From Candidatus Pelagibacter communis (GTDB lineage Bacteria; Pseudomonadota; Alphaproteobacteria; Pelagibacterales; Pelagibacteraceae): 64,000 nucleotides of DNA. The notes below the pieces were generated by a model. That model was given only the letters and a program-made list of their open reading frames with translations, made no database searches and was not told the DNA's origin. Where the stretch lies: positions 62,001 through 126,000 of the forward strand of contig NZ_CVSO01000002.1 in assembly GCF_001180105.1 (NCBI RefSeq). The letters run 5' to 3'. Below are positions 35,711 to 39,457 of the stretch, piece after piece. The position numbers were made by a program, and so were the translations under genes. Each line of letters starts with the position of its first letter. Position 1 is the first letter of the stretch.

Positions 35711-36375
35711 GAGACCTAAGGCAAGAAATATTTAAGTTTGAGCAATTATCAAATTTTGATAAAAATGATTTTTTTGTAAGTGAATGTAATTATTTTGCAT
35801 TTAATTTAATTAAAAGCTGGCCTAATTGGGAAAAAAAAATATTAAATATTTATGGTGAGCGGAAATCAGGTAAGTCTCATTTAACAGAAATTTTTTTAGA
35901 AAATAAAAAAGGTATCAAATTTAAATTTAATGAGTTGAATGAGAAAATATTCGATAAAATTAAAGGATATCAAAACATTGTAATTGAAGATTTTAATGAA
36001 AGCTACAAAGAGGAAACAATTTATTCTTTAATTGATATGGTTGAAAAAGAGAACAAATATTTATTAATAACATCTGCGAAAGCTGTAAATGAGATGAAGA
36101 CAAGACTTAAAGATTTAAATTCAAGGTTTAAAAATGTTCTTACAGCTAAAATCGGCAAACCAGACGATGAACTAATATATGCACTTATTGTTAAAAATTT
36201 TTCGGATAGCCAAATAATTTTAGATAAAAAACTAATAAATTTTATTAGTAAAAGAATAGCTAGATCTTACGATAAAATATCGGAATTTATATGTACAATT
36301 GACGAAATTAGTTTAAAAAAAAAAAAACCTATTAATTTAAAAATAATTAAAGAAATTTTAGGAGTATCAAATTGA
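35695..36375 (+). CDS. hdaA: DnaA-related replication regulator (Hda-like)
   Basis: AAA+ ATPase related to domain III of DnaA, 226 residues, of the type that with the sliding clamp triggers ATP hydrolysis by DnaA after initiation. A degenerate Walker A reads GERKSGKSHL near residue 53 and Walker B reads NIVIEDFNE near 98; the LKDLNSRF segment with a following Arg resembles the box VII region. There is no C-terminal DNA-binding domain. Sequence drift is high, so the call leans partly on synteny with purM and DUF2066. Confidence 0.8.
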   Translation: MESKIRDLRQEIFKFEQLSNFDKNDFFVSECNYFAFNLIKSWPNWEKKILNIYGERKSGKSHLTEIFLENKKGIKFKFNELNEKIFDKIKGYQNIVIEDFNESYKEETIYSLIDMVEKENKYLLITSAKAVNEMKTRLKDLNSRFKNVLTAKIGKPDDELIYALIVKNFSDSQIILDKKLINFISKRIARSYDKISEFICTIDEISLKKKKPINLKIIKEILGVSN

Positions 36376-38159
36376 ATAAATTTAGAACACATAATTGCGG
36401 TGAGCTCACAAAAAAATTTACTAAAAAAGATGTAATATTATCTGGCTGGATAAATAAAAAAAGGGATCATGGAAATCTTCTTTTCGTTGATCTTAGAGAT
36501 CATTATGGGATAACACAATGTGTAATTGATAAAGAAAATAAATTTTTTAAAGAATTGGAAAAGCTTCAGCTTGAAACAGTTATAAAAATAAATGGAAAAG
36601 TTATAGAAAGGACCAAAGAGACAATAAATAAAGATCTTTTGACAGGGGAGATTGAAGTTAACATTGAAAAATTCGAAATTATCGGAAAAACAAAAGAGTT
36701 GCCTCTACCTGTCTTTAGTGATCAGGAATACTCTGAAGAAATAAGACTTAAGAATAGATTTCTTGATTTAAGAAGAAAAAAAATTCATAATAATATTATC
36801 TTAAGATCAAAAGTAATTTCCTTTATTAGAAAAGAAATGGAGAAGATGGATTTTTTAGAGTTTCAAACTCCAATATTAACTTCATCAAGTCCTGAAGGAG
36901 CAAGAGACTTTCTTGTTCCAAGTAGATTAAATCCTGGAAAATTTTACGCTTTACCACAAGCACCACAACAATTTAAACAACTAATAATGATTTCAGGATT
37001 TGATAAATATTTTCAAATTGCTCCTTGCTTTAGAGACGAAGATGCAAGAGCAGATAGAAGTCCTGGTGAATTTTATCAATTAGACATAGAGATGTCATTT
37101 GTTGAACAAGAAGATGTTTTTTCAGTAATTGAAAATCTGTTTTTAAAATTGTTTAAGAAATTTTCGGATAAAAGACTAGCGAGTGAAAAGTTTCCTAGAA
37201 TAAGATATTCAGAAGCAATTGAAAAATATGGAACAGATAAACCCGATCTTAGGAATCCGCTGATTATCTCGAATATTACAGAAATTTTTAGCAGAGAAGA
37301 TGTTAAATTTGATATTTTTAAAAGAGAAGTTTCAAAAGGTAAAGTTGTTAAAGCAATCATTACAAAAAACACGAAAGATAAACCAAGAAGTTTTTTTGAT
37401 AATATTGATAATTGGGCCAAGAAAGAAGGTTCAGGCGGCTTAGCATATTTCACCTTTATTGAAGAAAATAATAAAATTGTAGGCAAAGGTCCTGTTGGAA
37501 AGTTTTTTTCCACAGAAGCGTGTGAAAAAATTTTGAAATTAACTAATTCTAAAATCGGTGACAGTATTTTTATGTCATGTGGACAAAAAAAAGATGTTGA
37601 AAAAATTCTTTCTTTAGCAAGAAATAAGATCGCTGAGGATTTGAGTCTAATAGCTAACGATATATTTTCTTTTTGTTGGATCATTGATTATCCTATGTAT
37701 GAAATAGATGAAAAGACCAAAAAAATTAAATTTAGTCATAATCCCTTTTCAATGCCCCAAGGAGACATTAAAAATATTGATTTCTCTAAACCGTTAGAAA
37801 TGAAAGCATATCAATATGATATTGTTTGCAATGGAATAGAATTATCTTCTGGCGCTATTAGAAATCATATTCCAGAATTGATGTATAAACTTTTTGAAAT
37901 AGCTGGGTACAAAAAAAAAGATGTAGATAGCAAGTTTAGTGGAATGATAAATGCATTAAGTTATGGCGCACCTCCTCACGGTGGAATAGCTCCAGGAATT
38001 GACAGAATAGTGATGTTGCTTGCAAACGAGGTGAATATAAGAGAAGTAACAATGTTTCCAATGAATCAAAATGCTCAAGATTTAATGATGATGGCGCCTT
38101 CAGAAGTCAGCACAGAACAATTAAAAGAACTTCAGCTTTCGATTACAAAAAAAAAGTAA
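36372..38159 (+). CDS. aspS: Aspartyl-tRNA synthetase
   Basis: Class II synthetase, 595 residues, the bacterial long form. The N-terminal OB-fold anticodon domain includes LSGWINKKRDHGNLLFVDLRDHYG; motif 2 is FRDEDARADRSPGEFYQLDIEM; a GAD insertion domain lies about 290-420; motif 3 is GAPPHGGIAPGIDRIVMLL near 545. The start is TTG at 36372, overlapping the hda stop (TTGA), and is supported by AGGAG at 36360-36364 seven bases upstream. The stop is flush with that of the opposite gene. Whether it also charges tRNA-Asn cannot be decided here. Confidence 0.94.
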   Translation: MNKFRTHNCGELTKKFTKKDVILSGWINKKRDHGNLLFVDLRDHYGITQCVIDKENKFFKELEKLQLETVIKINGKVIERTKETINKDLLTGEIEVNIEKFEIIGKTKELPLPVFSDQEYSEEIRLKNRFLDLRRKKIHNNIILRSKVISFIRKEMEKMDFLEFQTPILTSSSPEGARDFLVPSRLNPGKFYALPQAPQQFKQLIMISGFDKYFQIAPCFRDEDARADRSPGEFYQLDIEMSFVEQEDVFSVIENLFLKLFKKFSDKRLASEKFPRIRYSEAIEKYGTDKPDLRNPLIISNITEIFSREDVKFDIFKREVSKGKVVKAIITKNTKDKPRSFFDNIDNWAKKEGSGGLAYFTFIEENNKIVGKGPVGKFFSTEACEKILKLTNSKIGDSIFMSCGQKKDVEKILSLARNKIAEDLSLIANDIFSFCWIIDYPMYEIDEKTKKIKFSHNPFSMPQGDIKNIDFSKPLEMKAYQYDIVCNGIELSSGAIRNHIPELMYKLFEIAGYKKKDVDSKFSGMINALSYGAPPHGGIAPGIDRIVMLLANEVNIREVTMFPMNQNAQDLMMMAPSEVSTEQLKELQLSITKKK

Positions 38160-38990
38160 TTACTTTTTACCCTTAAGATTTATCCTAATATCAGATAAGT
38201 CAATAAGTTTTCTTTTATAATCATTTCTTACGAAACCTTTGCTGGTAATATCTTTAACTATTTTAATTAATTCATTATTCTCATCACTCATTACACCTGC
38301 ATTTTTTTCTTCCATTTTGTCTGATCTTCCAATTGAAGGTGTGTGAGCAAGATCTTCTCTATTTAAATATGAAATAGCAAGTTCCCTAAAAATATAATCT
38401 AAAATAGATGAGGCAGAAAGAATTCTATCATTTCCATAAACTTTTCCCGATGGTTCAAATTTTGTATCTACATAAGCGCTAACAAATTCATCTAATGGAA
38501 CTCCGTATTGCAATCCCAAAGATATAGCTATGGCAAAATTATTCATTAAAGCTTTAACCAGCTCACCTTCTTTACTTGTATCTATAAAAATTTCACCAAT
38601 CTTCCCATCTTCATACTCACCAGTATGCAAGTAAACCTTATGATCTCCTATGGTAGCTTTTTGAATATAACCTTTTCTTCTGTCGGGCATACCAAATCTT
38701 TTATTAACTGATTCATTCAGATTTTTAACAAAATTATTATTCATATTTTTATTATCATCAATTTTATTTACTTTCTTAATTTGCTTTTCTTTATCACTGA
38801 GATTATCTACAGTTTTAAGATTCTTATCCAAATTCTTGGTTTTTCGATTATCAATTTTCATATCTAATATTTCAAATTTTCCATCTTCTTTTTTTTCAAG
38901 ATTTTCTAATTCTTTTTCGTCTATTTTATCTAGATAATGACTGACTTTAAAAGTGCAGGTATAAAAGGTTTCAACGAGGTATTTTGCCAT
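38160..38990 (-). CDS. Stand-alone homologue of the class II ribonucleotide reductase C-terminal region (NrdJ-like)
   Basis: Protein of 276 residues. The second half (about 95-235) matches the region near the end of long alphaproteobacterial Nrd[69 protein letters not shown] and [22 protein letters not shown]-type blocks. The first 40 residues ([19 protein letters not shown]) and the Lys/Asp-rich linker to about 90 are not part of NrdJ as I know it. There is no catalytic Cys, B12-binding region or C-terminal Cys-rich tail, and no large subunit nearby. A split subunit similar to Pseudomonas NrdJb, or a regulator, are the options. Confidence 0.6.
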
Positions 38991-39100
38991 AATAGTTTCC
39001 TTATTTATTTTGAGTCTTAGAGATTCTATTGTATATACAAAATTAATTTTTAGTCTAATTTATTTTTTACAATTTAAAATTGAAAAAAAACTAATTTTTT

Positions 39101-39457
39101 ATGTTGACTCTATTTAAACAGATTTTCACATGGTGGAATCATCAAACTCTAGGCACTAGGCTTCACACTTTTTTCAAAGGAAAATTTGTTGGTAAAGATG
39201 AAAATGGCAACAAATATTATGAGAGTAAAAATGGAAGAAGATGGGTTATTTATAATGGGGAAGTGGACTCAACAAAAATACCAAATGATTGGTTTTCTTG
39301 GATTCATTTTACAAAAAATAAAATAGAAAAAGTTCAGGATCAAAAAAAATTTTCTTGGCAAAAGTCTCATAAACCTAATCTTACCGGAACAGATAAAGCT
39401 TATCATCCTAAAAAAAGTAACAATGAAAATAAAAAATATAAATCTTGGAAAGAGTAA
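39101..39457 (+). CDS. NADH:ubiquinone oxidoreductase accessory subunit, NDUFA12 family
   Basis: Homologue of the mitochondrial complex I accessory subunit NDUFA12 (B17.2), 118 residues. The core FVGKDENGNKYYESKNGRRWVIYNGEVDSTKIPNDWFSWIH block (residues about 29-69) is highly characteristic, followed by a basic tail with PNLTGTDKAYHP. The family is restricted to alphaproteobacteria and mitochondria, so it is a good lineage marker. The gene overlaps the DUF2155 gene by 35 bases, a pairing kept across alphaproteobacteria. Confidence 0.93.
   Translation: MLTLFKQIFTWWNHQTLGTRLHTFFKGKFVGKDENGNKYYESKNGRRWVIYNGEVDSTKIPNDWFSWIHFTKNKIEKVQDQKKFSWQKSHKPNLTGTDKAYHPKKSNNENKKYKSWKE

Follow-up and report, generated by a model that had tools for sequence, protein, structure and literature searches.

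The gene at 38160..38990 on the reverse strand of the window, by which we mean the whole stretch of 64,000 nucleotides analysed, encodes a stand-alone TSCPD/CRD protein of 276 aa (the coordinates include the stop codon), an apparent descendant of nrdJ without the catalytic barrel. Judged from sequence comparisons, it is likely to be a remnant that has stayed at the original place of nrdJ and is retained for an exapted, non-catalytic function, origin and function being taken jointly. The stand-alone form is found in 138 of 144 genomes sampled from the Pelagibacteraceae (family f1, the family of the window), and these streamlined SAR11 genomes (about 1.0–1.5 Mb in our sample) thus keep the remnant of a lost enzyme; the purpose of the 150–220 aa CRD becomes a testable question in a setting free of catalysis.

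Features of the encoded protein

Residues 61–262 align with positions 930–1130 of NF005736 (B12-dependent RNR) with an E-value of 4.2e-66, and residues 110–205 match the TSCPD domain (PF12637) with 44.6 bits against a curated cut-off of 22.8, which places the protein in that family. Aligned profile to profile with NrdJ of f174, the sister family, the protein shows 58 % identity (E-value 5.8e-58), and the CRD homology that marks NrdJb is present. The ten strands and catalytic cysteines of a class II RNR barrel are absent, since the ORF aligns only downstream of the barrel. These matches bear out the initial annotation in describing a homologue of the NrdJ C-terminal region that lacks the catalytic barrel, and the conserved N-terminus of its own and charged linker that it reported are also recognized.

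The N-terminal part (residues 1–53; 38832..38990, reverse strand, as for all parts of the gene) is conserved in Pelagibacteraceae and has no detected similarity to NrdJ; it is followed by a variable charged linker (residues 54–94; 38709..38831), the CRD/TSCPD core (residues 95–221; 38328..38708) and a C-terminal part with the motif TSKGFVR... (residues 240–276; 38163..38273). When the window sequence is compared with five close relatives, dN is 0–0.007 in the core (dS 0.41–0.51), 0–0.008 in the N-terminus and 0 in the C-terminal part, with 0.04–0.09 in the linker, and the protein is under very strong purifying selection. A tail that is separately encoded and so tightly conserved probably serves a function in its own right in SAR11. 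Across 38 NrdJ sequences, 80 CRD columns reach 95 % conservation or more; in 62 of these the NrdJ residue is also present in at least 95 % of 80 stand-alone proteins, and in three (138, 146 and 177) a different residue is fixed. L143 and L155 were left out of these counts.

Fifteen sequences share an invariant set of N-terminal residues (M1, K3, E7, Y10, C12, K15, H18, L20, D36, G37 and R49–T51), of which Cys12 is the sole cysteine of the stand-alone protein. Derivation of this segment from NrdJ was rejected, no similarity being detected (hhalign probability 0.1). Strong matches to it occur in five of 385 alphaproteobacterial genomes, all of them Pelagibacteraceae; six weak matches elsewhere in the class (E-values 0.002–0.046) were set aside, the two that were read being unrelated ORFs, one of them ribosomal protein L4-like. 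The first half of the C-terminal part aligns to the NrdJ stretch that precedes the zinc ribbon, and the ribbon itself is absent. Six cysteines follow the core in all 38 full-length NrdJ proteins compared; the stand-alone protein has none of these C-terminal cysteines, which serve thiol-disulfide exchange and zinc binding and are a further mark of NrdJb. Nor does it match the ATP-cone (PF03477), and so it does not qualify as a cone-type regulator of class I RNR.

The predicted model of the whole protein has a pLDDT of 64.6, with values mostly of 81–92 in the core; the N-terminus modelled alone reaches 53.7. A sequence search against solved structures gave no match to the protein, and Foldseek with the model returned nothing at an E-value of 10−3 or below. 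With VIA-align the core gives Z scores of 4–5 against IscU/SufU/SufE-like folds, a level that is common according to the tool; the top Z is 5.3, and IscU/SufU/SufE, lipoate-ligase and FAD-reductase domains are mixed among the matches. This resemblance is weak, does not establish function and is a lead only.

The locus and its probable origin from nrdJ

The stand-alone gene lies tail-to-tail with aspS (aspartyl-tRNA synthetase; 36372..38159, forward strand) and is divergent to the gene for the complex I subunit NDUFA12 (39101..39457, forward strand). The order aspS / stand-alone gene / NDUFA12 in the window corresponds to aspS / full-length nrdJ / NDUFA12 in f174, where nrdJ (1194–1203 aa) is divergent to NDUFA12 in all eight loci fetched and an aspS-like ORF lies on its other side in the five loci of sufficient length. 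In other alphaproteobacterial families, NDUFA12 is present in the fetched flank of 16 of 30 full-length nrdJ loci, divergent in all 16, and was not seen within the short flank fetched for the other 14. All 80 of the best relatives kept by our search have the stand-alone gene divergent to NDUFA12, which argues that the ORF is not a chance one.

The stand-alone proteins form one clade in our tree (support 100/100; stem 1.82; L143 left out) that groups with f174 NrdJ, with moderate, not strong, support for the joint branch (94/88). The catalytically dead NrdJ proteins of families f64 and f146 (L138–L140), which are discussed below, also fall beside f1 (87/82), and their placement may reflect long-branch attraction. 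That the locus and its neighbours are those of f174 nrdJ suggests that the barrel was lost in place, and the simplest history would be one in which approximately the first 930 codons of the ancestral nrdJ were lost and a new N-terminus was gained. The initial annotation is therefore partly supported in its overall interpretation: no large subunit is adjacent, the neighbours being aspS and NDUFA12, but the gene is not an unattached orphan from elsewhere, since it occupies the ancestral nrdJ locus.

Reductases and B12 in the Pelagibacteraceae

The genome from which the window derives (860 kb in 80 contigs, 78 % complete) encodes NrdA (645 aa) and NrdB (339 aa) as adjacent genes on the same contig as the stand-alone gene and about 87 kb from it. 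At this completeness we found no further TSCPD or NrdJ match and no detectable NrdJ barrel; the B12-binding domain (PF02310) has no match in the genome, and the ATP-cone (PF03477) none in its NrdA or NrdB. The supposition that the cell uses an iron-type reductase and no B12 thus holds as far as these tools reach, as does its corollary that the protein is not a classical NrdJb. As for the finding that the initial annotation said would overturn its view, a split nrdJ large subunit elsewhere, none was found here or in the single-contig relatives G207, G297, G098 and G375.

Our order-level sample comprised 197 genomes, 144 from f1 and 53 from f174. NrdJ is above the cut-off in none of the f1 genomes, and the six that have no stand-alone gene are G402, G440, G491, G541, G568 and G503. 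In each of the 11 single-contig f1 genomes, one match falls within the range of the stand-alone protein and there are two further matches, which are the two halves of NrdA in the four genomes inspected. No B12-binding domain was found in 11 of 14 f1 genomes searched; weak matches occur in the other three and exceed the cut-off in one. NrdA has no match in 17 of the 144 genomes, 16 of which also have no NrdB match; the 17 are drafts, 89–96 % complete, and assembly gaps are likely, though not proved. The stand-alone gene is present, with no match to NrdA or NrdB, in G448, G454, G460, G466, G472, G490, G513, G526, G546, G548, G555, G565, G489, G531, G544 and G566, and these 16 drafts may reflect either assembly gaps or genuine absence.

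Among the 53 f174 genomes, NrdJ is above the cut-off in 43, partial or fragmentary in five and without a match in five; NrdB was found in none of six tested and strong B12-binding proteins in all eight tested. Loss of the barrel in f1 is accompanied by a move to the B12-free NrdAB, the tail being retained.

The two kinds of gene also differ in their upstream regions, which were scored at several spacings, with 200 first-order resamples each, against what we take to be the NrdR-box consensus. The window genome's nrdA is preceded by paired NrdR-box-like sites. At L083:5262-5461, upstream of nrdA, there are two such sites 31 bases apart, with none of 200 resamples as good. Such pairs precede nrdA in the Pelagibacteraceae, with none of 200 resamples as good in three of five cases (17 and 19 in the other two), nrdJ in f174 (at most three resamples in seven of eight, and 58 in the eighth) and nrdA in family f9 of another order (at most two in three of four, but at spacing 20). 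Before the stand-alone gene, at least 44 of 200 resamples score as well in six of eight Pelagibacteraceae, including the window, which thus show no NrdR-box-like pair, and two are borderline (three and six resamples); in f9 at least 57 do so in all seven genes.

Parallel cases in other lineages

Family f9 has a stand-alone CRD protein of 278 aa that is similarly barrel-less. Its gene is divergent to NDUFA12 at all 13 loci, and NrdA is encoded elsewhere; the protein differs from that of SAR11 in retaining four cysteines in a zinc-ribbon-like tail and in having another N-terminus. The stand-alone form is present in 27 of 32 f9 genomes and NrdJ is above the cut-off in none of the 32. The f9 proteins form a separate clade (100/100). 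Because NrdJ persists at this locus in f174, the reductions in f1 and f9 look independent, and loss of the barrel with retention of the CRD would seem to have occurred again in f9.

We also surveyed NDUFA12 neighbourhoods of class-I-type alphaproteobacteria without full NrdJ. Candidates were 97 genomes chosen by eye as having a weak match only; 17 that were too incomplete or nearly identical to others were dropped and 80 were searched. The 97 did not include f1, genomes lacking a match altogether, three f9 genomes or two genomes with large fragments (G173 and G276). NDUFA12 was matched in 59 of the 80 (neighbourhoods L218–L276), and the 21 without a match are hence not counted among the 59. 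A dead NrdJ-related open frame of 472–1229 codons lies beside NDUFA12 in 18 of the 59 genomes, representing ten families (the dead descendants are at L131–L140, L145, L146, L148, L151, L152 and L154–L157); 17 of the frames are cleanly divergent to NDUFA12 and the other overlaps it as a stop-to-stop frame only. In G218 a dead NrdJ-like protein is located away from NDUFA12. Caulobacter vibrioides, one of the control genomes, matches TSCPD, NrdB and NDUFA12 while NrdJ stays below the cut-off, and it may likewise have a dead NrdJ. The remaining 41 neighbourhoods contain no NrdJ-related ORF, so that retention, although common, is by no means universal.

Like the SAR11 protein, the dead descendants occupy the NDUFA12 locus, lack the NPC[SA]E motif (none of the 18 has it) and have NrdA elsewhere in those listed; unlike it, they are 472–1229 aa long and most have much of the NrdJ body in recognizable form. 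Alignment of 19 dead NrdJ-like ORFs shows that NPCSE and the first cysteine are gone in all of them and that a cysteine remains at the C482 position in three, these being sites whose roles in NrdJ we presume. The CRD is clear in ten of the 18 and weak or absent in eight, which belong to three of the ten families (f121, f115 and f104); the zinc-ribbon pattern remains in three. One pair of dead NrdJ genes gives clear evidence of selection (dN 0.108, dS 0.669) and one weak evidence (dN 0.501, dS 0.905), the remaining pairs being saturated or not estimable. A literature search in which subscription journals were mostly outside reach found no paper on the SAR11 protein or the dead NrdJ descendants, which does not prove absence.

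Stand-alone TSCPD ORFs are also present on viral contigs, at L182:3989-4411 (with the same match in L183) and L185:3986-4471, encoding 140 and 161 aa; among the neighbouring ORFs listed for L182 and L185, inspection by eye revealed no reductase barrel.

Possible functions of the retained CRD

PMC4520616 describes the class II CRD as binding the rim of the barrel, with thiol exchange through its C-terminal cysteines, and PMC5704485 reports that the tetramers and hexamers induced by dATP or dGTP depend on it. Compared with the CRD of NrdJ, the SAR11 protein has kept the homology along residues 61–262, most of the conserved columns and the gene locus, but it is unfused, has a new N-terminus and lacks the six C-terminal cysteines and, in the window, the NrdR-box-like pair. 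The Pelagibacteraceae have lost the B12-dependent barrel and can rely on NrdAB for dNTP synthesis, and the CRD/TSCPD region persists as a separate protein that has a new N-terminus and no redox cysteines. We suggest that it was exapted as a non-catalytic protein-docking or oligomerizing factor. Since the part that passes electrons has gone and the part that folds and docks remains, docking, binding or oligomerization, and not redox transfer, would be the activity most likely to have been kept.

Several other accounts of the gene have to be weighed against this history. Pseudomonas aeruginosa NrdJb likewise carries the CRD on a separate protein (229 aa, compared with 276 here), and split nrdJ is described for other Proteobacteria in PMC4520616, so that the homologous region could belong to a classical NrdJb whose NrdJa is hidden elsewhere in the genome. 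NrdJb, however, has redox cysteines, NrdJa as an operon partner and the need of a B12 enzyme, none of which was found here; all candidates were scored in the window genome and in the four others named above, without a second NrdJ-like large subunit, and with the lost cysteines and the scarcity of B12-binding domains in f1 this account is very improbable and close to refuted. Acquisition from a phage or another bacterium, with landing beside NDUFA12, might be suggested by the viral contigs L182, L183 and L185, but both neighbours and their orientation match f174 nrdJ, the tree places the protein with f174 NrdJ, if not strongly, and the viral ORFs are distant (37–57 % over part of the core), which leaves this a slim chance. 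The large deletion relative to nrdJ is what a decaying pseudogene kept by chance would display; with dN/dS far below 1 in the N-terminus, core and C-terminal part, and an intact gene in nearly all of the sampled genomes, which are streamlined, the substitution pattern refutes decay and its probability is negligible.

If the barrel-less remnant does have a function of its own, its partner could lie within or outside dNTP synthesis. NrdA has a barrel related to that of NrdJ and lacks a cone, so that a dNTP-responsive modulator acting in trans is conceivable: the CRD would bind NrdA and make its assembly or activity respond to purine-dNTP levels, replacing the missing ATP-cone. Rim binding by the class II CRD to NrdJa, its part in dATP/dGTP-induced oligomers, the cone-less NrdA and NrdB of the window genome and the persistence of conserved CRD columns without the old barrel would all suit such a role; against it, the paired NrdR-box-like sites stand before nrdA and not before the stand-alone gene, the gene is not co-located with nrdAB, and absence of the cone may be general among these NrdAs. 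We regard the NrdA partnership as doubtful. A partner outside dNTP synthesis, which the CRD either had already within NrdJ or gained later and which the N-terminus with Cys12 would serve, has in our estimate an even chance; loss of NrdR-type control leads us to rate it somewhat higher than NrdA. It would also fit the new conserved N-terminus, the absence from the tail of every redox cysteine and the repeated retention of the tail after loss of catalysis, in f9 and in the dead NrdJ descendants; the weak IscU/SufU/SufE-like resemblance of the core does not point to a function.

A broader possibility, which we advance tentatively and at less than even probability, is that the alphaproteobacterial NrdJ CRD is a bifunctional module, with a second, non-catalytic role such as dNTP-dependent assembly control or the binding of a non-reductase partner. 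Loss of catalysis with the tail kept in place, its repetition in another order and the dead relatives in ten families suggest that the CRD does more than take part in catalysis or electron transfer. A second role still needed after B12-dependent catalysis was replaced would explain both the lone CRD in at least two orders and the dead NrdJ proteins that ten further families retain where nrdJ originally lay; the weak or absent CRD in f121, f115 and f104 indicates that one common CRD function cannot account for all cases. A practical consequence is that proteins annotated as 'ribonucleotide reductase' at the NDUFA12 locus may be non-catalytic.

Other elements upstream of the stand-alone gene

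A putative promoter element, TTAGACTA-N11-TGTATATAC, lies upstream of the stand-alone gene (39031..39058, reverse strand); it matches once in the window and in none of 100 shuffles, and is similar in most relatives displayed. Between the gene and NDUFA12 there is a palindrome, CAATTTAAAATTG (39070-39082), which is the sole match in the window (chance mean 0.10) and possibly an operator; similar palindromes are present in many of the relatives displayed.
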